A stretch of DNA of 35,572 bases from Hyphomicrobiales bacterium (GTDB taxonomy: Bacteria; Pseudomonadota; Alphaproteobacteria; Rhizobiales; Beijerinckiaceae). Both the position numbers and the translations under genes were made by a program. The number at the start of each line of letters is the position of its first letter. Positions within the stretch are counted from its first letter, which is position 1. Shown one piece after another: positions 3,806-34,996 of the stretch. The notes under the pieces are model-generated. The model was not told the origin of the DNA, did not search any database, and saw nothing but the letters and a program-made list of their open reading frames with translations. The stretch covers positions 1-35,572 of the forward strand of contig CANGIS010000028.1 of assembly GCA_947454055.1 (NCBI GenBank), in the 5' to 3' direction.

Positions 3806-3846
3806 GGTGAGGATCGTTTTGTCGCCTTTGGCGACCGCGCCTCACC
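3806..3846. terminator. Nested inverted repeat between convergent genes (possible bidirectional terminator)
   Basis: Outer arms GGTGAGG (3806-3812) and CCTCACC (3840-3846) enclose inner arms GTCGCC (3821-3826) and GGCGAC (3830-3835) with a TTT loop. The structure lies between prs and the DMGDH-like gene and overlaps the stop codon of the latter. Neither strand has a long T run after the stem, so termination is inferred from position and folding only. Confidence 0.45.
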
Positions 3847-6268: not shown

Positions 6269-6417
6269 CGTCACATCTCCGGATCAGCATCGCAACCTGC
6301 GACAGGCTTCATCATCTCATCAGGAACCTACCCGACAGGCCCGTTTACGCATCGCCTTTTTTTTGGATAGGGCTATCGGGAAAGGGGGGAGGCTTAAAAA
6401 AAAGCCAAAAATGGAAT

Positions 6418-7036: not shown

Positions 7037-8017
7037 TCACACCCGAAACGGCGATCCCGCCTTCGTAACCATCCCTTCCACTGGCCCCTTGAGCCGCGAC
7101 GTCGGCCCATCGGCCAGATGCGCGGCAAAGCGGTTGATCAGCCAGGATCGGAACAGCGCCACCGCCTCATCGTTCAAATCTTCCGGATGGGTGGAGAGGT
7201 AATAGCCATAGCCGCCATCGACCACGACATCGAACGGGTTTACCAATTGCCCGGCCTCGATCTCGGCTTTGAACAGCATCGGGTCGACCAGCGCCAAACC
7301 CTCGCCCGATAGCGCATATTGCACCACCAACCGCGACGTATCGAACACCAGACCGCGATCCACATCGAGATCAGGCCGGCCGATGCCGCGCGCGAACAAA
7401 TCCCATTGGTGATGCCGCGAGCGGTTATCGAGCTTCATATGCAAAAGATCATTCGTCTCGATAAAGCTCGCCGGATCGCTCGGATCAGCCTTCGCCGCCA
7501 CCGAGGGGTGACATAAAATCGACAGACGCTCCATCCAGAGGAGATCAAGGACCGTATCGCTCACCGACGGCTCGGTGAACACCACGGCGACATCGGCCTC
7601 ATTGTCCAAGCCATGCCCCATATCGGATTCGATATCGAGCGTTACACCGGGATGCTCGGCGCGGAAATCTTTCAGGATCGGCACCGCCAATTGATGCGCA
7701 AAGGTGGCGGGTAGCGAGACCTTCAACGCCCGACGCGGCGAGCGGCCTTCTTTGATAATATCGGACAACGCCTGATCGATGCGATCAAAGCTCTTGCTGA
7801 CCACGGGCAGCAAATGCTGGCCTGCTTCGGTCAGCACCAATTGCTGCGGGCGACGCTCAAACAGTGGCACGCCGAGGAAATTCTCGAGCACGATCACATG
7901 GCGGCTCACAGCGCTTTGCGCCACGGTGAGGCTATTGGCCGCCGCCGTGAAACTCAAATGTTTGCCCGCGGCTTCAAAGGCGCGCAGGGCATTCAAGGGC
8001 AGCCATTTCCTGTCCAC
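7037..8017 (-). CDS. LysR-family regulator, GcvA-like
   Basis: The 326-residue protein has an N-terminal winged helix-turn-helix (about 5-65) with LNALRAFEAAGKHLSF, TVAQSAVSRHV and FLGVPLFER, the signature of the GcvA/AmpR branch of LysR regulators. The remainder is a periplasmic-binding-protein-like effector domain. The start is GTG at 8017, supported by GGGAGAG about eight bases before it. It lies 27 bases after the racemase-family gene on the same strand, so it is probably co-transcribed with the two enzymes and may control them. The inducer is unknown. Its 3' end lies only eight bases from the end of the convergent mazF-like gene. Confidence 0.9.
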   Translation of the reverse strand: MDRKWLPLNALRAFEAAGKHLSFTAAANSLTVAQSAVSRHVIVLENFLGVPLFERRPQQLVLTEAGQHLLPVVSKSFDRIDQALSDIIKEGRSPRRALKVSLPATFAHQLAVPILKDFRAEHPGVTLDIESDMGHGLDNEADVAVVFTEPSVSDTVLDLLWMERLSILCHPSVAAKADPSDPASFIETNDLLHMKLDNRSRHHQWDLFARGIGRPDLDVDRGLVFDTSRLVVQYALSGEGLALVDPMLFKAEIEAGQLVNPFDVVVDGGYGYYLSTHPEDLNDEAVALFRSWLINRFAAHLADGPTSRLKGPVEGMVTKAGSPFRV

Positions 8018-8044: not shown

Positions 8045-9160
8045 TCAGCCGATCCGTGTCGCGGCGAGCCTCTCCTCGTCGAGAGTGTAGCCCATGCCCG
8101 GCGCATCGCTCAAGACGACCATGCCGTCTTTATCGACGCCGAGCGGCTTTTCCATCATGTAATCGCGCCGATCAAGGCTCCACTCCGGCGGATCATAGGG
8201 CATTTCGAGGAAGGGCGCGTCGCATACGCCTGCTGTCAGATGCGCATTGGCGACCACACCCATGCCATTGGTCCAGGTATGCGGGGTGAAAACCACGTTG
8301 TTTTCCTGCGCCAGAGCGGCCACGCGCTTTAACCCCGTAATACCGCCGACAAGCGCCGCATCGGGCTGCACCACATCAAGGCACCCGTCGCGGATCAGGT
8401 CGCGGAACTCGTACAGCTCACGCGTCATCTCGCCGCCCGCAATGCGCACATCCACCATTTCGCGTAAACGACGCATGCCTTCGCGGTCCGAGCGATGCAG
8501 GGGCTCCTCCATCCAGTAGACGCCGAGACGTTCCAATTCCCGCGCTACCGGAATGGCATCTTTCAGCGACCATGAGGAATAGGCATCCCACGACATCCGC
8601 CAGCCTTGGTTGCAATCGACCATCAGATCGAGCTTGTTGCCGATGCGGTTGCGTACGGCCTCCAAAGCCTTGATGTCCGCGCGCCAATCGCCGCGATGAA
8701 AGCGGATTTTCAGCGCCTTGAACCCTTCAGCAAGATATTTTTCCGAAGCATCGGCCAGAGCTTCCGGTGCGCGTAACGTGCCGGAGGAGGCATAAGCCCG
8801 CACGCTATTGGAAAGCCCGCCGACCAGCTTCCATACCGGCTGACCGGTGATCTTGCCTGCCAGATCCCACAGCGCGAGATCGAGCGGCCAGCAGCGGCCA
8901 TAATGGAACTGGATATTGTTCAGGATGCGATAATGCCGTTCGATCTGCATCGGGTCTTGGCCGATAAACAGATGCTCGTGGCCCGCAAACCCCACCATGA
9001 AATCCCCCGACGCCACGCCGGTAAGGCCTGCATCGGTATGCACCCGCACAATGCACGCATCAAAATGCCGTCGCGGCTGCGTATCCCAACTCGCATGAAA
9101 CGGCGGGTCGAGCGGCAAACGGTGGTTGGTGATTTCGATACTGGTGATTTTGATGGTCAT
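8045..9160 (-). CDS. Mandelate racemase/muconate lactonizing enzyme family (enolase superfamily)
   Basis: The 371-residue length is normal for the superfamily. An N-terminal capping domain (about 1-125) is followed by a barrel domain. The metal ligands are visible as Asp in LMVDCNQGW, Glu in YWMEEPLHR and Glu in IAGGEMTR. The first catalytic motif is LKIRFH, so the KxK pair reads K-I-R, and the opposite side has PDAALVGG and the FTPHTWTNGMG histidine. This pattern fits acid-sugar dehydratases and related racemases that abstract a proton next to a carboxylate, but not one named activity. It is followed by a LysR gene and preceded by an aldehyde dehydrogenase on the same strand, which suggests a short catabolic route. 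Confidence 0.87.
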   Translation of the reverse strand: MTIKITSIEITNHRLPLDPPFHASWDTQPRRHFDACIVRVHTDAGLTGVASGDFMVGFAGHEHLFIGQDPMQIERHYRILNNIQFHYGRCWPLDLALWDLAGKITGQPVWKLVGGLSNSVRAYASSGTLRAPEALADASEKYLAEGFKALKIRFHRGDWRADIKALEAVRNRIGNKLDLMVDCNQGWRMSWDAYSSWSLKDAIPVARELERLGVYWMEEPLHRSDREGMRRLREMVDVRIAGGEMTRELYEFRDLIRDGCLDVVQPDAALVGGITGLKRVAALAQENNVVFTPHTWTNGMGVVANAHLTAGVCDAPFLEMPYDPPEWSLDRRDYMMEKPLGVDKDGMVVLSDAPGMGYTLDEERLAATRIG

Positions 9161-9273: not shown

Positions 9274-10776
9274 TTATTCGTAAACCGTCCATATCGTCTT
9301 GAAATCCATATATTTATCCACCGCGTGCGGCGAGCGATCGCGACCGAAGCCGGATTGCTTGAACCCGCCAAACGGTGTCACGGGCGAGGATTTGTCATAG
9401 CAATTCACAAACACCGTGCCCGCGCGGATGGCGGATGATACCCGATGCGCGACATTCATATCCTTGGTCCACACCGAACCGCCGAGGCCGAAAATCGTAC
9501 CATTGGCAATGCCGACCGCTTCCTCTTCCGTGTCGAACGGAATGACCGCCAGCACGGGTCCGAAAATCTCTTCCTGCGCGATGCGCATATCGGGCTTCAC
9601 ATTGTCGAAAATCGTCGGCTCGATATAGAACCCGCCGGTCTCCTCCAACACGCGCTTGCCACCCAACGCGAGCGTCGCGCCTTCCTTCTCGCCAATCGCG
9701 ATATAATCGAGCACGCGCTCCATCTGCTTCTTTTCCACCATCGCGGCCATTTGCGCGTGGGGGTCAAACGAATGGCCCTGCGGGATTTGTGCTTTGGCTA
9801 CCGCTGCCACCTTCTCGATCAACCGATCCTTGATCGAGCGATGCGCAACCACGCGTGAACCGGCATGGCAGGTCTGGCCTTGGTTGTAATAGATCGACCA
9901 CGCAATCGCCTCCGCCGCTTTATCGAGATCGGCATCGGCCATCACGATTTGCGCGCTCTTGCCACCAAGCTCCAAGGCCACGCGCTTGATGTTGCTTTCG
10001 CTCGCATAGCGCATCATCAGCTTGCCGACTTCGGTCGAGCCGGTAAAGGCGATCATGTCGACATCCATATGCAAAGCGAGCGGTTTGCCGGTCTTCTCGC
10101 CGAAGCCGGGGACGATGTTCAACACGCCGTCCGGAATACCCGCCTCTTTCGCCAGCTTGCCCAGATAGAGCGAGGCGAAGGGCGATTGCTCGGCAGGCTT
10201 CAAGATCACCGAATTGCCAGCCACCAGCGCGGGACCGATTTTCCACGCCGCAATAATCAGCGGATAATTCCACGGCACAATCGCGCCCACCACACCGAGC
10301 GGCTCCTTGCGCACCAGCACCAGATCTTTCGGGCTCATCGGCGCGATCTCGTCATACATCTTGTCGGCGAGTTCGGCATAATACTGGATGCATTTATGGC
10401 ACGACGGCACATCGATGCTCAGCGAATTGCCGATCACCTTGCCGACATCCAGCGTCTCAAGCACGGCGATTTCATCGTTATGCGCTTCGATCAAAGCGGC
10501 AAAACGCAGCATGATGCGCTTCTTCTCGGTCGCCGGCAGGTCGCGCCAGCGCCCATCTTCAAACGCCGCGCGGGCGGCTTTCACCGCCTCGTCGATATCG
10601 GCCGCATCGCAATCGGCAACTTGGCCCGCCACAGATCCATCCATCGACGAAATCTTGGCAAAGGCTTTGCCGGATCTGGCCGCCACATACTGGCCATTGA
10701 TGAAGGCGCGGCCTTCGGGAACAGTAGCCCTTGCGCGGGCAATCCAGGCTTCTTTGGTGGTTGGGCGGTCCAGCAT
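9274..10776 (-). CDS. NAD(P)-dependent aldehyde dehydrogenase
   Basis: The 500-residue enzyme oxidises an aldehyde to the acid with NAD(P). Motifs in order: PWNYPLIIAAWKIGPALVAGN, the FTGSTEVGK cofactor-binding turn, LELGGKSAQIV with the catalytic base Glu, NQGQTCHAGSR with the catalytic Cys (about 303), and the closing segment PFGGFKQSGFGRD. This is closest in look to betaine-aldehyde and gamma-glutamyl-aminobutyraldehyde dehydrogenases (BetB/PuuC/AldA type), but the substrate cannot be fixed. The ATG at 10776 gives the usual N terminus. It is the first gene of the minus-strand group with the racemase-family and LysR genes. A 348-base divergent spacer precedes it. Confidence 0.92.
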   Translation of the reverse strand: MLDRPTTKEAWIARARATVPEGRAFINGQYVAARSGKAFAKISSMDGSVAGQVADCDAADIDEAVKAARAAFEDGRWRDLPATEKKRIMLRFAALIEAHNDEIAVLETLDVGKVIGNSLSIDVPSCHKCIQYYAELADKMYDEIAPMSPKDLVLVRKEPLGVVGAIVPWNYPLIIAAWKIGPALVAGNSVILKPAEQSPFASLYLGKLAKEAGIPDGVLNIVPGFGEKTGKPLALHMDVDMIAFTGSTEVGKLMMRYASESNIKRVALELGGKSAQIVMADADLDKAAEAIAWSIYYNQGQTCHAGSRVVAHRSIKDRLIEKVAAVAKAQIPQGHSFDPHAQMAAMVEKKQMERVLDYIAIGEKEGATLALGGKRVLEETGGFYIEPTIFDNVKPDMRIAQEEIFGPVLAVIPFDTEEEAVGIANGTIFGLGGSVWTKDMNVAHRVSSAIRAGTVFVNCYDKSSPVTPFGGFKQSGFGRDRSPHAVDKYMDFKTIWTVYE

Positions 10777-22572: not shown

Positions 22573-24108
22573 TCAGAAATCCGTCGGCGCTCCGCCTTCC
22601 GACTTGCGCTTGGCGACAAACGCTTCGAGTTCGGCCTTGATGGCGTCATCAATCGGTGGCGGCGTAAAGGCGGCGAGGCGCTCTTTATACAAACGGTTAG
22701 CCTTGTCATAGGCCGTTGGCGATCCCGCCTCCTGCCAGGTCTCATAATTCCGCCAATCCGAAATCATCGGTGAGAAAAACGCGTTGCGATAGCGCGATTG
22801 CGTGTGTTCGCAGCCGAAGAAATGGCCGCCAGGGCCCACTTCCTTCATGGCGTCAAAGCCCAGATCATCATCGCTGAACGCCAGCGGACGCATGAACTCG
22901 GCCAACATGCCCAGAAGATCGGCATCAATCACCATTTTCTCGAAAGAAGCGTGCAACCCGCCTTCCATCCAGCCGGCGGCATGCATGATCAAATTGCCGC
23001 CGCCCATAATGGCGCCCCAGAGCGAAAACACGCTCTCATAGGCTGATTGCGCATCAATCGTATTGGCAGCGCACGTATTGGAAGAGCGATACGGCAAACC
23101 GTAACGGCGGGCGAGCTGTCCGCCAATGATCGCGGATTTCATCTGCTCAGGCGTGCCAAACGCAGGCGCACCCGATTTCATATCCACATTTGACGTAAAC
23201 GCCCCATAGACAAAGGGAGAGCCGGGATTGCAGCTCTGCGCAAAGACCAAACCGGCCAGAGCTTCGGCGTTCTGCTCAACAATGGCGCCCGCAATCGTCA
23301 CCGGTGCCATGGCTCCTGCGAGGGTGAAGGGCGTCAACACCACCGGCTGATTGCGCTTCGTCATTTGGATGATGCCTTCCATCATCGGGATGTCGAGACG
23401 CAAGGGCGAATTGGAGTTGATGATCGTGAAGACCGACGGTTCGCGATCAAGCGTCGCATCATCGACACCGCGGGCGATACGCACCATTTCGATGGCGTCA
23501 AGATTACGTTCGGCCCCGAGGGAATACGCGTGAATCGGCTTATCAGATAGCGTCAGCATATCATACAGCGCATCGAGATGGCGCACCGAGGCATGAATAT
23601 CGGCGGGCTCGACGGGATAACCACCCCATAAATGGACATTATCCAACGATTGCCCGAGCCGGATCAGGTTTTGAAAATCGACATGATTGCCAGGACGGCG
23701 CCCGCCATCGCGATCAGCGGCATTCGGAGCACTGGCGACCGAGCAAAAGGCAACCGCATCGCCCCCAATTTCGAGATTATTCTCGGGGTTGCGCGCATGA
23801 AGGGTAAAGGTTTTTGGTGCAAGACCGATGATGGATTCGACCAGATCACGGGGAAATCGGACCCGGCCGGTCTCATCATCAACAATTGCGCCTGCCTTTT
23901 TCAAAATTGCGCGCGCGCCGACATGCAGCACATCAATGCCCAATTCTTCAAGAACCCTGAGCGATTCTTGATGGATACGCTCGATTTGTTCCGGCGTTGC
24001 CAATTCGACCGGCGCAAAAGGACGCCGCGGTTGTGGTGCCTTTGGTGTCTTTCCAGCGCGCTCAGCACGACCCGCACGGCGGCGGCCACCTTCACTCATC
24101 AATTCCAT
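22573..24108 (-). CDS. MttB-family (non-pyrrolysine) corrinoid-dependent methyltransferase
   Basis: The 511-residue protein belongs to the trimethylamine:corrinoid methyltransferase superfamily and has no in-frame amber codon, so it is the non-pyrrolysine branch, which includes glycine betaine methyltransferase MtgB. Recognisable blocks: SLRVLEELGIDVLHVGAR near the N terminus, FSVFTIINSNSPLRLD-type (TIINSNSPLRLD), VLTPFTLAGAMAPVTIAGA, and GGGNLIMHAAGWMEGGL, near-complete length. The first 30 residues are basic (GRRRAGRAERAGK) and probably not part of the fold. ATG 24108 is selected for its GAGGA seven bases upstream; an upstream TTG is less likely. It would move a methyl from an N-methylated amine to a corrinoid protein. 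Neighbours suggest a methyl-transfer operon; the substrate is unknown. Confidence 0.9.
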   Translation of the reverse strand: MELMSEGGRRRAGRAERAGKTPKAPQPRRPFAPVELATPEQIERIHQESLRVLEELGIDVLHVGARAILKKAGAIVDDETGRVRFPRDLVESIIGLAPKTFTLHARNPENNLEIGGDAVAFCSVASAPNAADRDGGRRPGNHVDFQNLIRLGQSLDNVHLWGGYPVEPADIHASVRHLDALYDMLTLSDKPIHAYSLGAERNLDAIEMVRIARGVDDATLDREPSVFTIINSNSPLRLDIPMMEGIIQMTKRNQPVVLTPFTLAGAMAPVTIAGAIVEQNAEALAGLVFAQSCNPGSPFVYGAFTSNVDMKSGAPAFGTPEQMKSAIIGGQLARRYGLPYRSSNTCAANTIDAQSAYESVFSLWGAIMGGGNLIMHAAGWMEGGLHASFEKMVIDADLLGMLAEFMRPLAFSDDDLGFDAMKEVGPGGHFFGCEHTQSRYRNAFFSPMISDWRNYETWQEAGSPTAYDKANRLYKERLAAFTPPPIDDAIKAELEAFVAKRKSEGGAPTDF

Positions 24109-24222
24109 GGCGTTATCCTCAATCGGCAAAAGGAACTTTTCTGGACAAAAACCTACCCGCTAAGGCCCACGCCGCAAAGCATGATCCGGTGCGGATGATA
24201 TATGTTTTCTAGATAGCGTTCC

Positions 24223-25884
24223 TTAAACCCGGCTGCGCCGGTCGGTCCGTCGACCGCGCGCCGCCTCGTCATTATCGGAAAGGGCAACCCGCGCACCAAG
24301 CAGCGGATAGCCCAGTCGGCTATGGGGCAACCCCATCGCGCCGATCTGCTCCATCTGAAAATCTGGATCGAGCACGGTTTCAATGACCCGCGTCTCACGC
24401 GCCAGCCGTGCCATTCCCAAACGGGCAGAACGGCTCAACAAGGCTGCTTTTGCGCCTTCAAGTGCGGCATTTTCGCTAAAACTGATGTGGTCAAGATCAC
24501 AATCGGGAAACAGGCCGATGATAGCGGCGCGGACAGGATCAATCGCGGCACCCGAGCCGCTGGTGAGCACCACCCGATCAAGGGCCGCGCCACCATGGCG
24601 TTTGAGTAAAATCCGTGCCGCTGCCTGAACCGCCGCCTTCGCCATTTGCAAGGTGCGAATATCATGCTGGGTCAGCGCGATACGGGGCCCATCTTCCTGA
24701 ACAAGATAGGTTGAAGACCGGTATTCCTCCCGAATACGCGGCGTTATCGCCGCTTTATCCGGATCAAGTGCTCCATCGCGCGCCATCAGCCCCGACCGTC
24801 TAAGTTCCGCCAAGGCATCAATCAGGCCGGACCGGCAGAACCCGCCGAGGTCCAGCGCGTCAATCGAAGCGGCAAAGTCTGGATCATCAGACCATAAAGG
24901 CGAGCCGATGACCCTAAAACGGGGCTCAAATGTTTCGGCATCAATGCAAAGGGCATCAATGGCACCCGGCACCGCATGCCGGCCTGCTTCGATCTGGACG
25001 CCTTCAAGCGCCGTACCCGCCGGAGGAGCAGCCGCCAAAAGCTGGCCTTTGGAGCCCAAAACTACGTTGGTCGTGGTGCCAAGATCGACGAGCAGCGTCA
25101 CCCGTTCATCCTGTCCAAGGCCTGAGCAATAGGCCGCCGCAAGCGTATCGCTTCCAACCTGACCGCCCAGCAAAGGCAGGGCATGGACCATCGCACCGGG
25201 GGCAATATGAAGTCCGAGGGTCTCGGCCAGCACATCAACCGGCTCCGAGACCACCTGTGTATAGGGGGCACTGCCCAGCTCGGATGGGTCGAACCCCAAC
25301 AACAAATGATGGGTGACCGGATCGGCCACCATGACGGCATCAACAACGCTCTCGCGGGTAAGGCCCGCTTCCACCGTCAGCGAGCCCACCGCGCCATCAA
25401 GCGTCCGACGAAGCAGGTCGGTCATTTCGGCAACGGCATCGGGCGTCATCATACCATGGGCAATCCGGCTGATCGGATCAACGCCAAAGCGCACGAGCGG
25501 GTTAACGAGGCTGGTTTTCGCTAAATTTTTACCTGATTCGAGATCATCGAGATGAATTTCAATCGAACTCACACCGATATCGAGTGCGAGACCTGCACTA
25601 TTTATCGGAGCACCTGCACTATTTATCTCAAATGGCGCTTCCAACGCCACCAAATGGCGTCCATTCAGCACCGCCGTGACGCGCCATTGGCCCTTCCGAA
25701 GCGCCTTTTGCAGCGTCGCCAAAACCCCGAGCGGGATCTCCAGTCCAAAGATAGCGTGTTGATCTGCAAGGGCTTTTTCAAGCCGACGCGCATCACTGGA
25801 AGGGTCATGGACATCAGGCTCCGCAACCGTAACACTCAAGCGGCGGATGACCCGATCAGGATGCTCGGCAAGACCAAAAATCAA
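24223..25884 (-). CDS. RamA-like ASKHA corrinoid-activating protein lacking a ferredoxin domain
   Basis: The 553-residue protein matches the ASKHA (DUF4445) proteins that re-reduce oxidised corrinoid proteins with ATP. The phosphate-binding elements are LALDIGVSS (about 98-106, the usual DIGTT turned to DIGVS) and LLVDLGTTTNVVLG (about 265-278). Other features are SPLW-type and FVLTSGSGAAIDP (VVLTSGSGAA near 460). Family members usually carry an N-terminal [2Fe-2S] ferredoxin domain; here the protein starts about where that domain would end, and no C-x5-C-x2-C-x(n)-C cluster is present. The start is TTG at 25884, overlapping the stop of the homocysteine methyltransferase as TTGA. A 21-base tandem repeat at 25591-25627 adds seven residues (INSAGAP-INSAGLA) before the first ATP motif. 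Confidence 0.85.
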   Translation of the reverse strand: MIFGLAEHPDRVIRRLSVTVAEPDVHDPSSDARRLEKALADQHAIFGLEIPLGVLATLQKALRKGQWRVTAVLNGRHLVALEAPFEINSAGAPINSAGLALDIGVSSIEIHLDDLESGKNLAKTSLVNPLVRFGVDPISRIAHGMMTPDAVAEMTDLLRRTLDGAVGSLTVEAGLTRESVVDAVMVADPVTHHLLLGFDPSELGSAPYTQVVSEPVDVLAETLGLHIAPGAMVHALPLLGGQVGSDTLAAAYCSGLGQDERVTLLVDLGTTTNVVLGSKGQLLAAAPPAGTALEGVQIEAGRHAVPGAIDALCIDAETFEPRFRVIGSPLWSDDPDFAASIDALDLGGFCRSGLIDALAELRRSGLMARDGALDPDKAAITPRIREEYRSSTYLVQEDGPRIALTQHDIRTLQMAKAAVQAAARILLKRHGGAALDRVVLTSGSGAAIDPVRAAIIGLFPDCDLDHISFSENAALEGAKAALLSRSARLGMARLARETRVIETVLDPDFQMEQIGAMGLPHSRLGYPLLGARVALSDNDEAARGRRTDRRSRV

Positions 25885-26870
25885 TGCCTCCGACGCCCCC
25901 GCCTCTCCCCACCCTCGTTCTTCGAAGGAGGCGCCTGTAGAGGTCCAAGTATTTGAATTACCTTATCTTCTTCCGGTCTTACATCTTTTAGATGACTGTT
26001 CACCGCGGCCCGAATCGCGGCAAGATGCACAAAGCCAGTACCGCAACATCCGCCAATAATTTGGGCTCCGGAATCGATTGCCAAACAGGCATAATTTCCC
26101 ATCAATTCCGGTGTTCCAGTATAATGAATATGCTCGCCAACAAAATGCGGAATACCCGCATTAGCCTTTGCAATGATTGGAATTCCTGCCTTTTTTGCAC
26201 TCATCCCGAGAATGCTCATCACAAGATCAGAAGCGCCGACGCCACAATTTGCCCCGATGGCCAAAGGTTTCGGATGAAGGCTCTCGGCAAATTCAACAAG
26301 AGCCTCAGGTGTAATACCCATCATGGTGCGGCCAGCGGTATCAAAACTTGCTGTAAACGTATAAGGTAACCCAACTTTAATCGCAGCATGAGCGGCAGCA
26401 CGAATTTCTTCCAACGAAGACATGGTTTCAATCCAAGCGACGTCGGCACCACCTTCCTTTAAACCGATCATCTGATCCACGAATACTTCAACAGCGTCCG
26501 CTTCCGTCAACGGTCCCAGTGGCGCGAAGAGATCACCCGTCGGCCCCACCGACCCCGCAACAACAACCGGGCGCCCAGCTTTCCCTGCCACAGCCTTGGC
26601 GATGCCAGCCGCCAAGCGGTTGATTTCACGAGATTTTTCTTGCATCCCATGCAACATCAAGCGCCTGGCATTAGCACCAAACGTATTTGTCAAAATAATA
26701 TCGGCACCGGCATCAACAAAGCCTTGATGCAAAGCGGTCACTCGATCCGGATGCTCGTAATTCCAAACTTCAGGAGCTTCGCCGGCGACAAGCCCCATTT
26801 CAAAAAGGTTCGTCCCCGTAGCACCGTCGGCAACCAGCAATTTTCCAGAAGATAAAAGTGAGGCAAGCAT
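25881..26870 (-). CDS. Homocysteine S-methyltransferase (betaine-homocysteine or split methionine-synthase type)
   Basis: The 329-residue barrel enzyme would transfer a methyl group to homocysteine, giving methionine. The zinc ligands are seen as Cys209 in GANCGVG and Cys275-Cys276 in GGCCGTG, and the substrate loop is LLVADGATGTNL. Length and motifs fit both betaine-homocysteine methyltransferase and the free-standing homocysteine domain of split cobalamin-dependent methionine synthases. Its place before an ASKHA protein and an MttB homologue favours the cobalamin version. ATG 26870 has AAGG eight bases upstream. The last 20 residues (PPSKNEGGERRGRRRH) are low-complexity and unlike the family end, so the tail may be read from a repeat-like insertion. 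Confidence 0.86.
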   Translation of the reverse strand: MLASLLSSGKLLVADGATGTNLFEMGLVAGEAPEVWNYEHPDRVTALHQGFVDAGADIILTNTFGANARRLMLHGMQEKSREINRLAAGIAKAVAGKAGRPVVVAGSVGPTGDLFAPLGPLTEADAVEVFVDQMIGLKEGGADVAWIETMSSLEEIRAAAHAAIKVGLPYTFTASFDTAGRTMMGITPEALVEFAESLHPKPLAIGANCGVGASDLVMSILGMSAKKAGIPIIAKANAGIPHFVGEHIHYTGTPELMGNYACLAIDSGAQIIGGCCGTGFVHLAAIRAAVNSHLKDVRPEEDKVIQILGPLQAPPSKNEGGERRGRRRH

Positions 26871-27057
26871 CAAAACAACCTTTCGGACCTGTAGCAATTA
26901 CCATTTAGGCGCTTGGCCCAATGCCGCCAAGGGGAAAGGCCGACGATATGAAAAATAAATCAATTATCGCCATTTCATCCCCGCCAAAATCTAAGAATGC
27001 CGAGCGAAAGCTTTGACCTCGAACCGCGAGATAGAATACCTTGGCGTTCAAAAGGAT

Positions 27058-27738
27058 ATGACCACCATGGACGATAAAGCCTTAGAATCGCGTATTACAA
27101 GTTCTGATCCCTTGAATGGGATAGATTTGATGGATGCTGTCCGACGCGCCAGGATCGAACAGGCTGAAAAATCAAGTATTGCCAATGAGTTGCGGGCCGC
27201 AGAATTCACGCGTCTTGAGTTTCTGAAAAATAGTCTTTCACCCATTTTGGCACAGCTTCCGCGTGATGCTGAACTTTTCAATCATGGACTGGTTCCGGGA
27301 GAACGCCCGCGTTTCTATGTCGATATGATTGCTTTTGTCGAAATGGGCCGCGACCGCAGAACCTACCGATTTCTTATGGATTCGCCTGCAGGCCGACAAA
27401 TGTTGGGTGAAAGCGATGATATTTCGATTATGGCAGGCGCCATTACAAATTATTTAGGACGTAGGCTGGTTGAACGGGAGTTCGCCATTCAGCATGCTAT
27501 GAGCTTTGAAGCAGTCGAACCACATTCGATGGCAAAGACTCTGGAGCTTGAGCATTCGGCATCAATCGCAACAATGCCGGTCATCACGGAAGTAAGGCGC
27601 CCCGACAGCGGTCGACTATTCCTTGCATTCATCATCGGAATTATTGCCGGTATTGCTGCGGTTTATGCAGGGGTCCATTGGGATGCCTTGATTGTGCCCC
27701 AAATTACCCACTTTACGGAGTATTTCAGCGTTCACTGA
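27058..27738 (+). CDS. Conserved alphaproteobacterial one-TM protein, unknown function
   Basis: A 226-residue protein. The N-terminal 190 residues are soluble and charged, with the conserved-looking core AEFTRLEFLKNSLSPIL, ELFNHGLVPGERPRFYVDMIAFVEMGRDRRTYRFL (LVPGERPRFYVDMIAFVEMG). One membrane segment lies near the C terminus (LFLAFIIGIIAGIAAVYAGV, about 188-207). I recall this pattern from Rhizobiales genomes but know no function. ATG 27058 follows AAAAGG too closely; ATG 27067 would be nine bases further from it and is also possible. It is divergent from the homocysteine methyltransferase. Confidence 0.8.
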   Translation: MTTMDDKALESRITSSDPLNGIDLMDAVRRARIEQAEKSSIANELRAAEFTRLEFLKNSLSPILAQLPRDAELFNHGLVPGERPRFYVDMIAFVEMGRDRRTYRFLMDSPAGRQMLGESDDISIMAGAITNYLGRRLVEREFAIQHAMSFEAVEPHSMAKTLELEHSASIATMPVITEVRRPDSGRLFLAFIIGIIAGIAAVYAGVHWDALIVPQITHFTEYFSVH

Positions 27739-29685: not shown

Positions 29686-29929
29686 CTGGCAAATTGGAAT
29701 TGCAACCCCCTCTAGATAAGCCGCCGGGTTCAGCGTCCGGGGACGGAGCCTGACATTAAATCGAGGGCAAATTTGGTCTGTCCGGCAAAAAACAATGTAG
29801 CCCATCAAAATTGAGCATCACTTACCCCCTTGAAGATATGCTGAAAGTGTCGAAAGATCGTCTTCACTTCCGCAAGTTCCGAAAACGGGAGCTTTGGATT
29901 GCAATCCTTGTTCGACAGAGGCACCTTTG

Positions 29930-31180
29930 ATGAAATACTCCGTTTTTAGTTTAATTCATCAAGCATTTCGGGGCCAAAAAGATTGGCAGCCTGCATGGCG
30001 CTATCCTGAACCGAAAGAGGAATATGATATTGTTCTCATCGGTGGAGGAGGTCATGGGCTGGCAACCGCCTATTATCTAGCTAAAGAACACGGTTTAAAA
30101 AATATCGCTGTGATTGAGAAAGGATATCTCGGCGGCGGCTCGGTCGGGCGGAACACCACCATTGTCCGCTCGAACTACCAAGAGCCTGGCAATATTCCGT
30201 TTTACGAGTGGTCATTGAAATTATGGGAAGGTCTTGAACAGGACTTTAATTACAACGCCATGATGAGCCAACGTGGCGTGTTGAACCTGTACCATTCCGA
30301 TAGTCAACGTGATGAATATGCACGTCGTGGCAACGCAATGATGATGCATGGCGTACCTTGCGATCTCCTCGACAAAGAAGGAGTAAGGAAGCTCGTTCCT
30401 TTTCTGGATTTTGACAATGCACGTTTTCCCGTTCACGGCGGATTATTGCAAAAACGCGGAGGTACAGCCCGACATGACGCCGTCGCATGGGGTTTTGCTC
30501 GGGGTGCGGATAGTCGCGGCGTTGATATTTTACAAAATACCGAAGCCAAGCAGATACGCGTCGAAAATGGACGGGCCGTCGGCGTTGAAACCAGCCGCGG
30601 ATTTATCAGAGCTAAGAAAATTGGAATTGTTGCTGCCGGCAATACGACGCGTATCGCCGAGACGGCCGGCCTAAGCCTTCCAATTGAATCCTATGTCTTG
30701 CAAGCCTTCGTCTCTGAAGCAATCAAGCCGCTGATACCGTCGGTTGTAACCTTTGGCGCGGGTCATTTTTATATCAGCCAATCGGACAAAGGGGGGTTGG
30801 TTTTCGGCGCATCGCTGGATGGCTATTCATCCTATGCTGCACGCGGCAATCTACCTGGTGTTGAGGATACGATCGAAGAGGCGATGGCGATTATGCCCTC
30901 CATCAGTCGCGTTAAGCTTTTACGACACTGGGGTGGTATTATGGACATGTCCATGGATGGATCGCCAATTATTGATAAAACTGGAATTGACGGACTCTAT
31001 ATCAATTGTGGCTGGTGCTATGGCGGGTTCAAAGCAACACCGGGATCGGGGTGGTGTTTTGCCCATCTGATTGCAACAGATGAGACCCATCCGAATGCAA
31101 AGGCTCTGCGCCTCGATCGTTTCGAAAGCGGCCATGTCATCGATGAAGCTGGCACTGGTGCCCAACCCAACCTGCATTGA
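29930..31180 (+). CDS. soxB: Heterotetrameric sarcosine oxidase, beta subunit
   Basis: The flavin catalytic subunit that demethylates sarcosine, with FAD at the substrate site and a covalent FMN. The 416 residues begin with MKYSVFSLIHQAFRG and reach IVLIGGGGHGLATAYYLA, the dinucleotide-binding motif (about 35-50). The GGTARHDAVAWG segment (about 178-188) carries the histidine expected to bind FMN. GWCYGGFKATPGSGW near the C terminus is a soxB signature. ATG 29930 has AGAGG eight bases upstream. It opens the operon soxB-soxD-soxA-soxG; no promoter is recognised in the 284-base divergent spacer to mbfA. Confidence 0.96.
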   Translation: MKYSVFSLIHQAFRGQKDWQPAWRYPEPKEEYDIVLIGGGGHGLATAYYLAKEHGLKNIAVIEKGYLGGGSVGRNTTIVRSNYQEPGNIPFYEWSLKLWEGLEQDFNYNAMMSQRGVLNLYHSDSQRDEYARRGNAMMMHGVPCDLLDKEGVRKLVPFLDFDNARFPVHGGLLQKRGGTARHDAVAWGFARGADSRGVDILQNTEAKQIRVENGRAVGVETSRGFIRAKKIGIVAAGNTTRIAETAGLSLPIESYVLQAFVSEAIKPLIPSVVTFGAGHFYISQSDKGGLVFGASLDGYSSYAARGNLPGVEDTIEEAMAIMPSISRVKLLRHWGGIMDMSMDGSPIIDKTGIDGLYINCGWCYGGFKATPGSGWCFAHLIATDETHPNAKALRLDRFESGHVIDEAGTGAQPNLH

Positions 31181-31192
31181 AGGCATCATATC

Positions 31193-31471
31193 ATGCGTAT
31201 TCCATGTCCCTTCTGCGGCGAGCGCGATTCTCAAGAGTTTTCATATCTTGGACAAGCAGGCCTATCACGACCAGATCCCTCTGCACCGGACGCGCAGAAG
31301 GCCTTTCACGATTATGTCCATATTAGAAAAAACCCGGCCGGACCTAACTCTGAACTGTGGCTGCATGCCAATGGCTGCCGGTCCTGGATCGTTGTGACGC
31401 GAAACACACTAACGCACGAAATCTTGGGGTCAGATTATGCGTCTCCAGTTCTAAGGGAGACAATGAAATGA
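31193..31471 (+). CDS. soxD: Heterotetrameric sarcosine oxidase, delta subunit
   Basis: The small zinc-binding subunit (92 residues). The four zinc ligands are in place: Cys5 and Cys8 in IPCPFCGERD, and His58 and Cys62 in LHANGCRSWIVVTRNT. It is short of the C-terminal extension in some homologues but normal for this family. It starts 12 bases after soxB and overlaps soxA as ATGA, so both junctions are tight. Confidence 0.95.
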   Translation: MRIPCPFCGERDSQEFSYLGQAGLSRPDPSAPDAQKAFHDYVHIRKNPAGPNSELWLHANGCRSWIVVTRNTLTHEILGSDYASPVLRETMK

Positions 31472-34392
31472 GCAACCAAATCAATCGCCTGGCAATAGGC
31501 GGACTCATTGACCGTACAAAAGCTCTTTCCTTCACCTTTGATCAGAAAAAATATATCGGCTTTCAAGGTGATACACTAGCCTCGGCGTTGATTGCGAATG
31601 GCGTCTCCCTGATGGGACGTTCCTTTAAATATCATCGACCACGCGGTGCTCTTACTGCTGGTTCCGAAGAGCCGAATGCGCTTGTGGAAATGCGTTCCGG
31701 TTCAAGGCGAGAGCCCAATATTCGTGCAACGGTCGCTGAGCTTTATGAGGGCCTTAGCGCAACGAGCCAAAATCGCTGGCCTTCTCTCGATTTTGACGTG
31801 ATGGCTGTTAATTCGTTGTTGAGTCCGTTTTTGGCCGCTGGATTTTATTACAAGACATTCATGTGGCCGGCATCATTCTGGGAAAAAATATATGAGCCCG
31901 CGATCCGTCGTGCGGCTGGCCTTGGTCGTCCGCCCGAAGGAGACGATCCTGATCATTATGAGAAATCATTTGCACATTGCGACGTGTTGGTCATAGGAGG
32001 AGGACCTTCTGGTCTTTCCGCCGCCCTGTCGGCTGGACGTTCCGGTGCGCGTGTTATTCTTTGCGACGAAGGTCCATTGCTTGGTGGCCGGTTGCTATCG
32101 GACAATCGAGTAATCGATCATAATTCCGGGCTGGATTGGATCAAGGTAACGGAAGCTGAGCTCGCCAGCCTCCCCAATGTCCGCATCATGCGACGTACCA
32201 CGGTATTCGGCGTTTATGACCACGGTGTTTATGGCGCTCTGGAACAGATCAACGACCACTTAGCAATCCCTGCACCCTTTCAAGCCCGTCAACGCAGCTA
32301 TCGAATCAAGGCAAAGAACGCCGTTCTGGCAGCCGGCGCCATCGAACGGCCGATGGTTTTTGGCGACAATGATCGGCCGGGGGTCATGCTCGGGTCGGCT
32401 ATTAGGACTTATGTTAATCGGTATGCTGTTGTGCCTGGCAATAAGGCCGTTATTTTCACAAGTTCCGACGAGGGGCACACGACTGCCCGAACCCTTGAAG
32501 GCGCGGGCGCGCGGGTTGAGACCATCGTCGATACCCGCAAGGGTGAACGGATCCAGCGGGCTCTGGGTGGAAAACATGTGGAAGCTATTGAAATCATTGA
32601 CGCATCAGGCCAGGTCCGCATTGTTGAGTGCAATCTTTTGGCCTGCTCCAATGGCTGGAACCCTGCGCTCCACCTGACATGTCATCTTGGCGGGCGTCCA
32701 ATTTGGGACGACCAAGTCAACGCCTTTTTGCCAGGAAATATTCCCTCTGGGCTAACCGTTGCAGGTTCGGCTCAAGGGCGCTTTACGCTAACCAATGCAT
32801 TGGACGATGGAATGCGTCTTGGCGCCGAAGCTGCGCGGGCTGCCGGCTTCAGTGCAACGGTTCCAGACACACCGTTAACCGACCCTGAAAGTACCGAGCA
32901 CAAACCCGTATGGCGCATCGTTTCGGGCAAGGGCAAACGCTTTGTCGATTTCCAGCATGACGTTACCGATTCAGATATAGAATTGGCCAATCGTGAAGGG
33001 TTTCGATCTGTTGAACATATGAAGCGTTACACCACCTTAGGCATGGCAACGGACCAAGGTAAAACAGCCAATATAGCTGGCCTCGCCATCCTTGGTGAGG
33101 TTTCGGGCCGAACGATCGGTGAGGTTGGGACAACGATTTTCCGACCACCTTATACCCCCGTATCTCTTGGGGCGTTAGCGGGCCATCATGTTCACAAAGA
33201 TTTTAGGCCGATCCGCTATACACCCTCCCATCAATGGGCCGAGGAAAAGAAGGCCGTTTTTATGGAAACAGGCCCATGGATGCGTGCCCAATATTTCCCA
33301 AAAACGGCGGGTGAAGACTGGCTCACCGCTATGTGCCGTGAAGTTACTGTAACTCGTCAACGAGTAGGCGTGTGCGACGTATCAACACTTGGCAAGATCG
33401 ATATCCGCGGCAAAGATTCAGCGATCTTCCTTGATCGTGTATATACCGGAACATTCTCGACGTTACCGATCGGCCGGGTGCGATATGGCTTGATGATGCG
33501 TGAAGACGGCTTTGTCTTTGATGACGGAACAACTGCGCGTCTGGGAGAGCACCACTACCTCATGACCACCACAACGGCAGGCGCGGGAAAGGTGATGGCG
33601 CATCTCGAATTCTGCCATCAGGTACTCTGGCCTGAGCTTGATATTGCCTTCACATCGGTAACCGAACAATGGGCCCAATATTCGATTGCGGGCCCTAACG
33701 CCCGTGACGTGCTACGAAAGCTTATTGATCCTGCCATTGATGTATCGAACGAGGCATTTCCTTACATGGCAGCCCGATCGGTTACCTTGAAAGGAGGCAT
33801 ATCTGCGAGACTTTTTCGCATCTCCTTCTCTGGTGAACTGGCGTACGAGATTGGTGTCCCCAACAGCTATGGCGATGCTATGATCCGCGCGATCGAGGCC
33901 GCCGGCGAGGAATTCGGGATAATTCCTTACGGTCTTGAAGCCCTATCGACGATGCGAATTGAAAAGGGCCACGTTGCAGGCGGTGAATTGAATGGCCAAA
34001 CCACTCCCCTCGACTTGGGGCTCGGAAAAATGGTTTCGCAACAGAAGGATTGTATTGGCAAACATATGTCCGAGCGACCTGCGATGCTCGAACCGGATCG
34101 GCCAATATTTGTGGGTTTAAAACCCCTGAATGGGACGTCGAAACTAACCGGAGGTGCGCATTTTCTCGATATCGGGATGAAGCCATCCCTTTCGGCGGAT
34201 CTGGGCCATATGATGTCAACGGCATACTCGCCGGTGTTGCAGAGCTGGATTGGTCTTGGCATTTTGAAAAATGGACGCGAGCGTATCGGCGAAACCATAC
34301 GCGCCGTCGATTTCATGCGTGGAACAGATATTGAAGTTGAAATCTGCGACCCCGTATTTTTCGATTCTAATGGGGAGCGTCTTCGTGGCTGA
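31468..34392 (+). CDS. soxA: Heterotetrameric sarcosine oxidase, alpha subunit
   Basis: The 974-residue large subunit. The N-terminal part (about 20-100) has the ferredoxin-like GDTLASALIANGVSLMGRSF, KYHRPRG fold that here has no iron-sulfur cysteines. An NAD-binding domain follows (DVLVIGGGPSGLSAALSAGRSGARV, seen as VIGGGPSGLSAA near 171). The last 380 residues form an aminomethyltransferase-type folate domain (GSDLAYEIGV-type: GELAYEIGVP, IPYGLEALSTMRIEKG), which receives the methylene group onto tetrahydrofolate. Start ATG 31468 overlaps the soxD stop. Length is normal and all parts are intact. Confidence 0.96.
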   Translation: MSNQINRLAIGGLIDRTKALSFTFDQKKYIGFQGDTLASALIANGVSLMGRSFKYHRPRGALTAGSEEPNALVEMRSGSRREPNIRATVAELYEGLSATSQNRWPSLDFDVMAVNSLLSPFLAAGFYYKTFMWPASFWEKIYEPAIRRAAGLGRPPEGDDPDHYEKSFAHCDVLVIGGGPSGLSAALSAGRSGARVILCDEGPLLGGRLLSDNRVIDHNSGLDWIKVTEAELASLPNVRIMRRTTVFGVYDHGVYGALEQINDHLAIPAPFQARQRSYRIKAKNAVLAAGAIERPMVFGDNDRPGVMLGSAIRTYVNRYAVVPGNKAVIFTSSDEGHTTARTLEGAGARVETIVDTRKGERIQRALGGKHVEAIEIIDASGQVRIVECNLLACSNGWNPALHLTCHLGGRPIWDDQVNAFLPGNIPSGLTVAGSAQGRFTLTNALDDGMRLGAEAARAAGFSATVPDTPLTDPESTEHKPVWRIVSGKGKRFVDFQHDVTDSDIELANREGFRSVEHMKRYTTLGMATDQGKTANIAGLAILGEVSGRTIGEVGTTIFRPPYTPVSLGALAGHHVHKDFRPIRYTPSHQWAEEKKAVFMETGPWMRAQYFPKTAGEDWLTAMCREVTVTRQRVGVCDVSTLGKIDIRGKDSAIFLDRVYTGTFSTLPIGRVRYGLMMREDGFVFDDGTTARLGEHHYLMTTTTAGAGKVMAHLEFCHQVLWPELDIAFTSVTEQWAQYSIAGPNARDVLRKLIDPAIDVSNEAFPYMAARSVTLKGGISARLFRISFSGELAYEIGVPNSYGDAMIRAIEAAGEEFGIIPYGLEALSTMRIEKGHVAGGELNGQTTPLDLGLGKMVSQQKDCIGKHMSERPAMLEPDRPIFVGLKPLNGTSKLTGGAHFLDIGMKPSLSADLGHMMSTAYSPVLQSWIGLGILKNGRERIGETIRAVDFMRGTDIEVEICDPVFFDSNGERLRG

Positions 34393-34996
34393 TTTTCATC
34401 TTTTACCTCGCTCGGCGCTCGCACCGTTTATCAAAGCAGGGCATCATGGTGCTCCTACGCCAAAACCTGGCGTTTTGATCCGTGAAGTGACAAATTTTTC
34501 ACTGGCTTATCTGACGGCCTTCAAGGGCAAAGGGATTGAATTATCCGGAATAATTGAAAAACATTTTGGAATTGAATTACCGGTAGCCTCAAAAACAACA
34601 TCAAAAAACAGCGTCACATTTATAAGCGTTGGGCCCAGCCAATGGCTTGCATTGGCAGAATCCACCGAGGCGGAAAAATTTATCTCTACACTTGAAACTT
34701 TGGCAGGCTCAATTGCCGCCATCGTCGACCAATCCGATGCCCGCGCCATTGTCGAAATTTCCGGCTCTATGGTGCGACAGACATTGGAAAAAGGTGTGTC
34801 GATTGATCTTCATCCGACAAACTTCGCTCTTGGGGACGCTGCAACGACATTTGCAGCCCATCTTTGGATAACACTCTGGCAAACGCGAAGCGACCCCGCC
34901 TATCGCATCGCGGTATTCCGCGGCTTTGGATCCCCGATGCTTGATTGGCTCATCAACTCGGGAGCTGAGTTCGGCTGTCACATTCTCGGCGAATGA
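34385..34996 (+). CDS. soxG: Heterotetrameric sarcosine oxidase, gamma subunit
   Basis: The 203-residue gamma subunit of the complex, sharing the GcvT-like fold. It starts VADFHLLPRSAL in the usual family way and ends with SPAYRI/AVFRGFGSPMLDWLI-type region (FRGFGSPMLDWLI). The start GTG 34385 is preceded by GGGGAG eight bases upstream; an ATG at 34370 is in frame and would add five residues before it but leaves that ribosome site unused. It overlaps the soxA stop by eight bases. Confidence 0.92.
   Translation: MADFHLLPRSALAPFIKAGHHGAPTPKPGVLIREVTNFSLAYLTAFKGKGIELSGIIEKHFGIELPVASKTTSKNSVTFISVGPSQWLALAESTEAEKFISTLETLAGSIAAIVDQSDARAIVEISGSMVRQTLEKGVSIDLHPTNFALGDAATTFAAHLWITLWQTRSDPAYRIAVFRGFGSPMLDWLINSGAEFGCHILGE

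Follow-up and report, generated by a model that had tools for sequence, protein, structure and literature searches.

Methionine synthase is not always a single protein: in Phaeobacter inhibens it is split into three genes, a RamA-like and a DUF1638 protein are also involved, and methionine phenotypes were obtained for the three pieces as well as for RamA and DUF1638 (Price et al. 2018, PMC5764234; this article and those cited below are used from excerpts of their text). In Ruegeria pomeroyi, mutants show MtgC and MtgD to function in methionine synthesis as well as in the demethylation of glycine betaine, the mtgC and mtgD mutants being methionine auxotrophs that do not use glycine betaine even when methionine is supplied; the excerpted article names MtgB, MtgC, MtgD and MtgE and remarks on multiple MttB paralogues (Mausz et al. 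2025, PMC12478193). We describe here a three-gene row encoding an MtgE-like homocysteine methyltransferase, a RACo/RamA paralogue devoid of the ferredoxin domain, hereafter named RACoS, and an MttB-superfamily methyltransferase. It is carried by a stretch of 35,572 nucleotides from a Hyphomicrobiales bacterium (assembly GCA_947454055.1, contig CANGIS010000028.1), referred to as the window, which is the entire contig C28; the genome comprises 64 contigs totalling 2,671,137 bases and has a completeness rating of 100%. This operon is a variant member of the published split methionine synthase/glycine betaine demethylase system, and the window likely makes up half of a dispersed methyl-transfer system, cobalamin-dependent and of MtgBCDE type.

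The original prediction, made from the letters of the window, had reported three co-directional genes with no corrinoid protein in view and had proposed that the carrier was shared from elsewhere, and the whole genome bears out these points. The three genes lie on the minus strand in the order mtgE, RACoS, mttB (Table 1), with Pfam matches far above cut-off, a 4-base overlap between the first two and 93 bases between the last two. The whole-genome search with the B12-binding domain PF02310 retrieved two places, both on other contigs: the MtgC-like protein on contig C13 and a methylmalonyl-CoA mutase on contig C3 (1071 bits, cut-off 876). Scanning six-frame stop-to-stop segments of at least 100 codons for the DxHxxG motif gave five bare matches in the window, none of them with the ensuing SxL/GG pattern that we take to be the continuation of the B12 motif, and one full match on contig C13, inside the MtgC gene. 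As the only other B12-binding place is the methylmalonyl-CoA mutase, the genome holds one candidate carrier and no MetH; a complete MetH was what the original prediction had named as evidence to the contrary. The MetE family PF01717 had no match anywhere in the genome. The genome search that had been recommended also yielded a free-standing pterin-binding protein on C13, similar to MtgD (PF00809 106 bits; NF005719 366 bits, cut-off 259), the second of the two PF00809 places, on contig C46, being probably a dihydropteroate synthase. A split methionine synthase fits this genome, since MtgC is found elsewhere in it and neither MetH nor MetE is matched.

Other partners expected from the described systems are likewise gathered on C13. 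The single DUF1638 place of the genome is located there, as is one of the two places matching the RACo C-terminal domain (the other being in the window), and the C13 protein is a complete RamA with Fer2, linker, middle and C-terminal RACo domains. The MTTB domain occurs at five places, three on C13, one on contig C21 and one in the window. About 36 kb of C13 hold an OpuAC transporter, a GMC oxidoreductase, MttB genes, dehydrogenases of the flavin adenine dinucleotide (FAD)/GcvT type, MtgC, DUF1638, MtgD and RamA, together with genes identified only by reading the sequence as MetF2-like and L-serine ammonia-lyase-like; this predicted gene content agrees with the published glycine betaine pathway. 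One of the C13 mttB-like genes (C13:51342-52961) contains a match above gathering score to Rfam PYLIS_3, the mttB pyrrolysine insertion sequence (L014:12452-12551), and has no in-frame stop despite this match.

The open reading frame (ORF) of the window mtgE extends to a TTG at 26897, an in-frame ATG at 26870 being its likely start. The best sequence matches of the encoded protein in the PDB are methionine synthases (122 bits), and it possesses Cys218, Cys284 and Cys285, presumably the zinc cysteines. It is very unlikely that it represents a true betaine-homocysteine methyltransferase for which no corrinoid would be needed. The NCBIfam model of this enzyme, NF005718, is matched above its cut-off and earlier work on the Sinorhizobium Bhmt, as recounted in PMC12478193, would agree with it, but methionine synthases are the nearest among solved sequences, betaine-homocysteine methyltransferases first appear at rank eight of the PDB match list (1lt7, 56 bits), and the excerpted article argues that the Sinorhizobium homologue has not retained the betaine-binding residues and acts as a corrinoid-dependent module. 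The S-methyl_trans domain is present at two places in the genome, the window gene and C13:15129-15995. In this second gene (L012:15099-16157, minus strand) the first zinc-cysteine position reads His by eye (LMHTG for NCG), and copies of it, 71-100% identical, occur in nine of the 12 genomes of the genus, its own included. A riboswitch for S-adenosylmethionine or cobalamin was sought upstream of mtgE and rejected, as Rfam gave no gathering-level match in the window and only two chance-level ones at that place (E 2.6 and 4.8).

In the scheme that we propose, proteins of the MttB/MtgB family would move methyl groups from quaternary amines onto MtgC, the single corrinoid protein, MtgD would swap them between MtgC and tetrahydrofolate, and the window MtgE would pass them from MtgC to homocysteine, which would constitute the apparent methionine route of this genome. 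Methyl groups would pass through MtgC instead of being fed directly into methionine as first suggested. The RamA and DUF1638 proteins of C13 would hold the corrinoid reduced. The window MttB, as part of a separate catabolic set, would start the breakdown of a quaternary amine, most likely other than glycine betaine, and RACoS would be a diverged RamA paralogue, probably still able to dock with the corrinoid machinery but not reducing it.

Several observations weigh against this scheme. The window MtgE scores 482 bits against NF005718, well over the cut-off of 338, and the second homocysteine methyltransferase-family gene of C13 could give another methionine route. Identity of the window MttB to the three MttBs of C13 is only 28-39%, and to that of C21 49%. 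Pieces of the system can part, since one genome of the genus (G029, 98% complete) has a C13-type cluster and no close mtgE. Finally, among the 15 outgroup genomes considered below, five (G277, G192, G158, G197 and G191) have none of the four catabolic partners of mttB at 60% identity or more, and only one has mtgE in the stretch around mttB.

The most singular component of the row is RACoS. The RACo linker, middle and C-terminal domains are present in the window protein, and Pfam gave no match in it for the Fer2 (2Fe-2S) domain. In the frames read from 68 loci plus one duplicate entry, the 2Fe-2S cysteine pattern (CxxxxxCxxC-type) is found in all 54 other RACo/RamA rows versus none of the 13 RACoS rows, the latter representing seven genomes of one genus (L057, L058 and L060 being equated to G151, G153 and G152 from equal match values); set apart from these counts are a short fragment in which the pattern is absent (L041) and the entry labelled C13, a duplicate of L049 with the pattern outside the place sought. 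A ferredoxin domain hidden upstream of RACoS was rejected, as the stop-to-stop frame of 579 codons leaves only 26 codons upstream of the match. In L059, tblastn seemed to prolong RamA into the mtgE region, which was attributed to chance, two stops being present in L059 and five at the matching place in L057.

The remaining domains have also changed, as seen in a core alignment of eight RACoS rows (seven genomes; L058 and L066 at distance zero) and 51 others, from which nine rows and the duplicate entry were omitted as duplicates or fragments. The DIGSTT motif of RamA is altered in all eight RACoS rows (DIGASS, DIGVSS, HIGASS, DVGTTI and the like), VDVGTNAE becomes IDIGTTTE and variants, CGSG becomes CRSG, CRAG or CSSG, and GAFGSHID becomes GGSGVSID and variants; we take these motifs to be the phosphate and adenosine sites by which ASKHA proteins bind ATP. 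RamA has 181 invariant columns, defined as the same in at least 97% of 46 RamA orthologues after exclusion of five distant rows. Among the RACoS rows with a letter at the position concerned, 93 of these columns are retained throughout and 42 are lost throughout, while the stretches EPDIHDPSSD and TQHDIR form conserved blocks of RACoS. In RACo, Ser398 contacts the cobalt (PMC4934906); by a gapless reading it falls on a Pro of RamA, beside a conserved SS pair that reads AP in seven of the eight RACoS rows and SP in the eighth. A structure prediction of RACoS from five sequences reached a mean predicted local distance difference test (pLDDT) value of 49.

RACoS does not look like a normal activase, because the 2Fe-2S pattern is missing, the nucleotide-site motifs are altered and a complete RamA is encoded on C13. 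The repair of oxidised corrinoid, which had been ascribed to the window gene, appears better assigned to the C13 RamA. It is nonetheless conceivable, although unlikely, that RACoS is still a working activase, which would bind MtgC, perhaps only with MtgE bound, and receive electrons from a separate ferredoxin or flavodoxin. Flavodoxin reduces MetH in Escherichia coli. The retained fold domains, the retained half of the RamA-invariant columns and the location of RACoS directly behind mtgE in all seven genomes of the genus whose contig continues there would suit such a role, but the changes at the nucleotide sites affect every row, and the monomeric corrinoid activators known so far carry either one 2Fe-2S or two 4Fe-4S clusters (PMC6739815). 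Neither the titles and abstracts of the open-access literature searched nor the excerpts of PMC10418091 describe a RamA/RACo lacking the ferredoxin domain or a pseudo-activase.

All RACoS rows group together in one clade (100/100), whose branch measures 1.57, compared with end branches of 0.01-0.07 for the four RamA rows of the same genus; the exact placement of the clade is unsure, as treekit warned that long branches meet. In each of the three least saturated pairs (L051-L057, L051-L058 and L057-L058), the ratio of nonsynonymous to synonymous substitution rates (dN/dS) of RACoS is 0.10, many other pairs being saturated, and the matching pairs give 0.03-0.05 for mtgE, 0.02 for mttB and 0.06-0.07 for the divergent gene at 27013-27738; RamA gives 0.02-0.05 in other pairs. 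According to these values, RACoS is fast-evolving yet constrained by purifying selection. A further explanation, which we find doubtful though worth considering, is that RACoS is a decaying ramA duplicate that has not yet been lost, its frame being kept mainly by its position between two needed genes. Its long branch, its fast evolution and its occurrence, as far as seen, in one genus only point in that direction, as do its dN/dS, which is 2- to 6-fold that of mtgE and mttB but only some 1.5-fold that of the divergent gene, and the single in-frame TAA of the RACoS fragment of one genome (G097), which starts at a contig edge. Conversely, the dN/dS of about 0.10, the stop-free frames in the seven other genomes carrying the gene and the conserved blocks mentioned above argue against decay. 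We still favour a retained paralogue that docks without reducing. A more specific possibility, to which we attach little probability, is that it acts as a pseudo-activase, a non-reducing partner co-produced with MtgE, which would hold or hand over MtgC and in this way determine whether the methyl group is allotted to methionine or to folate and catabolism. To our knowledge, no such allocation factor has been described for a corrinoid carrier that anabolism and catabolism have in common.

A close mtgE is present in ten of the 12 genomes of the genus. In three of them (G140:C88, G154:C71 and G097:C72) the contig stops 16 to 78 bases beyond the mtgE match, judging from locus lengths, where RACoS would begin; strain variation may be the cause of these assembly breaks. 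Searched for directly, RACoS is found in eight of the 12 genomes, G097 among them; the same search gave only RamA-type matches in G029 and G140, and no match in G150 and G154. The G029 cluster of C13 type comprises mtgC, mtgD and ramA. Across the order, RACo/RamA is matched in at least 140 of 397 genomes, and all 28 loci newly read from these have the cysteine pattern. Left out of this reading were a 561-codon frame near a contig edge (G200) and several distant rows, 31-34% identical and of about 560-620 codons, matched mostly from residue 93 onward; L045, a locus of this distant kind with 579 codons, has the pattern. RACoS is thus seen in one genus only, a limit that is not proven as the G200 frame and several distant rows remain outside the reading. 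Five named loci with close RACoS relatives, listed by a pattern scan that catches close relatives only, belong to metagenome-assembled genomes (MAGs) called Beijerinckiaceae, Hyphomicrobiales or Rhizobiales bacterium, and the isolate names suggest that the MAGs carrying RACoS come from lakes and ponds.

The closest solved structures to the window MttB are 4yyc (372 bits), which we believe to come from Sinorhizobium, and the glycine betaine methyltransferase 9yce (352 bits). A pyrrolysine-containing trimethylamine methyltransferase was rejected, the score against TIGR02369 (315 bits) being below the cut-off of 525 and the frame having no stops, hence no in-frame amber codon. The original prediction had overlooked the catabolic genes that share the window with mttB (Table 1): all four partners, FAD/GcvT dehydrogenase, LysR regulator, enolase-superfamily enzyme and aldehyde dehydrogenase, lie about 12 to 16 kb from it, and soxB and soxA score above their cut-offs. 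In a kin locus (L058), soxA, soxB, mtgE, RACoS, mttB, the dehydrogenase, LysR, enolase and aldehyde dehydrogenase genes are contained, nine in all, in 21.6 kb. The aldehyde dehydrogenase stays below the cut-off of each of the best 25 of 41 NCBIfam families, and the true start of soxG is probably inside its ORF. Taken together, the set reads as a putative stepwise demethylation of a quaternary amine followed by oxidation of the remainder, and the window MttB probably acts on some quaternary amine different from glycine betaine. Plasmid neighbours (three records, one of them unannotated there), the names of neighbouring enzymes and the literature gave no clear answer on this substrate, and no methylated substrate of the conserved MttB-linked gene set was found in the literature searched.

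Orthologues or paralogues of the window MttB were found in 70 of 249 genomes of the order (E up to 1e-150), the best being 77% identical. Neighbourhoods were compared in 15 outgroup genomes of other families, picked by eye from the better matches with preference for ramA on the same contig, so that the mttB-ramA linkage is biased upward. Near mttB, the FAD/GcvT dehydrogenase (69-74% identical to the window copy) occurs in ten of the 15, the enolase-superfamily gene (78-83%) and the LysR gene (60-64%) each in seven, and the aldehyde dehydrogenase gene (67-71%) in five; ramA and mtgD are both in the stretch in nine. These neighbourhoods bear on whether the three genes of the window form one dedicated route, in which the methyl group of the MttB substrate would go to MtgE to make methionine, separately from the glycine betaine system. 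We judge this quite improbable: the operon-like order is kept in the genus, but mttB stands beside catabolic genes in other families, with mtgE in its surroundings only in the one genome noted above, and the genome search gave no second free corrinoid protein, which means that MtgC would need sharing. The dispersed system with a common carrier remains our preferred interpretation.

Two smaller observations concern the surroundings of the MttB genes. A HicB-like antitoxin gene (window:21919-22377, plus strand) stands between a DUF1285 gene and mttB and looks inserted, since these two genes are only about 87 bases apart in a kin locus (L060). Contig C21 (L016:1396-5393) harbours another MttB, 49% identical to that of the window, paired with an FAD/GcvT dehydrogenase 42% identical to its window counterpart; this pair perhaps serves a further methylated substrate.

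Table 1. Location of the genes of the dispersed methyl-transfer system and of the associated catabolic set (positions are those of the window unless a contig is given).
Feature	Position	Strand	Size	Domains or best evidence
MtgC, free-standing corrinoid protein	C13:37142-37831		229 aa	cap PF02607 and B12 PF02310 domains, full DxHxxG pattern
mtgE-like homocysteine S-methyltransferase module	25881-26897	-		PF02574 S-methyl_trans, E 5e-63
RACoS, ferredoxin-less RACo/RamA paralogue	24223-25884	-		RACo linker/middle/C-ter Pfam, E 4e-20 to 4e-58
MttB-superfamily (non-pyrrolysine) methyltransferase	22573-24129	-		PF06253 MTTB, E 5e-201
FAD/GcvT dehydrogenase (dimethylglycine dehydrogenase-like)	3842-6274	-		DAO, FAO_M, GCV_T, GCV_T_C
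LysR-type regulator	7037-8017	-		GcvA-like LysR match, below cut-off
Enolase-superfamily (mandelate racemase-like) enzyme	8045-9160	-		PF13378; best solved relative only 147 bits, none close
Aldehyde dehydrogenase (PuuC/BADH-like)	9274-10776	-		PF00171, E 3e-171
Sarcosine oxidase beta, soxB	29894-31180	+		TIGR01373 670 bits, cut-off 529
Sarcosine oxidase alpha, soxA	31357-34392	+		TIGR01372 1329 bits, cut-off 1164
Sarcosine oxidase gamma-like, soxG	34271-34996	+		TIGR01375 96 bits, below cut-off 144, residues 95-233

The use of one B12 protein for methionine synthesis and for several methylated-amine breakdowns raises the question of how the cell shares its carrier, and the persistence in one genus of a non-canonical activase copy behind mtgE offers a concrete and testable candidate for such a control. 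Why a ferredoxin-less, motif-altered RamA copy is kept at this place is the interesting remainder of this analysis, which otherwise extends a published system to small-genome Hyphomicrobiales MAGs and points out a conserved MttB-linked set made of MttB, the FAD/GcvT demethylase, the enolase-superfamily enzyme, the aldehyde dehydrogenase and LysR.

The idea of a shared carrier put forward in the original prediction is right, yet it was already in print (Price 2018; Mausz 2025), and the literature searched contained nothing closer than PMC12478193. With the Ruegeria pomeroyi MtgBCDE system, as described in the excerpts of PMC12478193, the present genome has in common free-standing MtgC, MtgD and MtgE, MttB-family proteins, RamA and DUF1638, with no MetH or MetE found, as well as several MttB paralogues for one common carrier. 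It differs from it in that mtgE stands beside RACoS and the MttB of another catabolic set, on a contig separate from mtgC, mtgD and ramA, and in being a Hyphomicrobiales genome without metH; its named kin are MAGs with lake- or pond-like isolate names, and the word freshwater is absent from the excerpted text. The three synthase pieces and both helper proteins are shared with Phaeobacter inhibens, for which the excerpts of PMC5764234 report one RamA-like protein, with a ferredoxin domain, whereas such a RamA is accompanied here by a ferredoxin-less second copy. The linker, middle and ASKHA domains of the Carboxydothermus hydrogenoformans RACo (PDB 3zyy, 4c1n) align to residues 9-524 of RACoS (202 bits), which unlike RACo has no N-terminal 2Fe-2S domain and has changed nucleotide-site motifs. 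Compared with MtgB (PDB 9yce; 2qne) and 4yyc, the window MttB is a member of the MttB superfamily with a near full-length match and no in-frame stop, and the C13 MttB at 32675-34171 is much nearer to 4yyc (792 bits) than the window protein.

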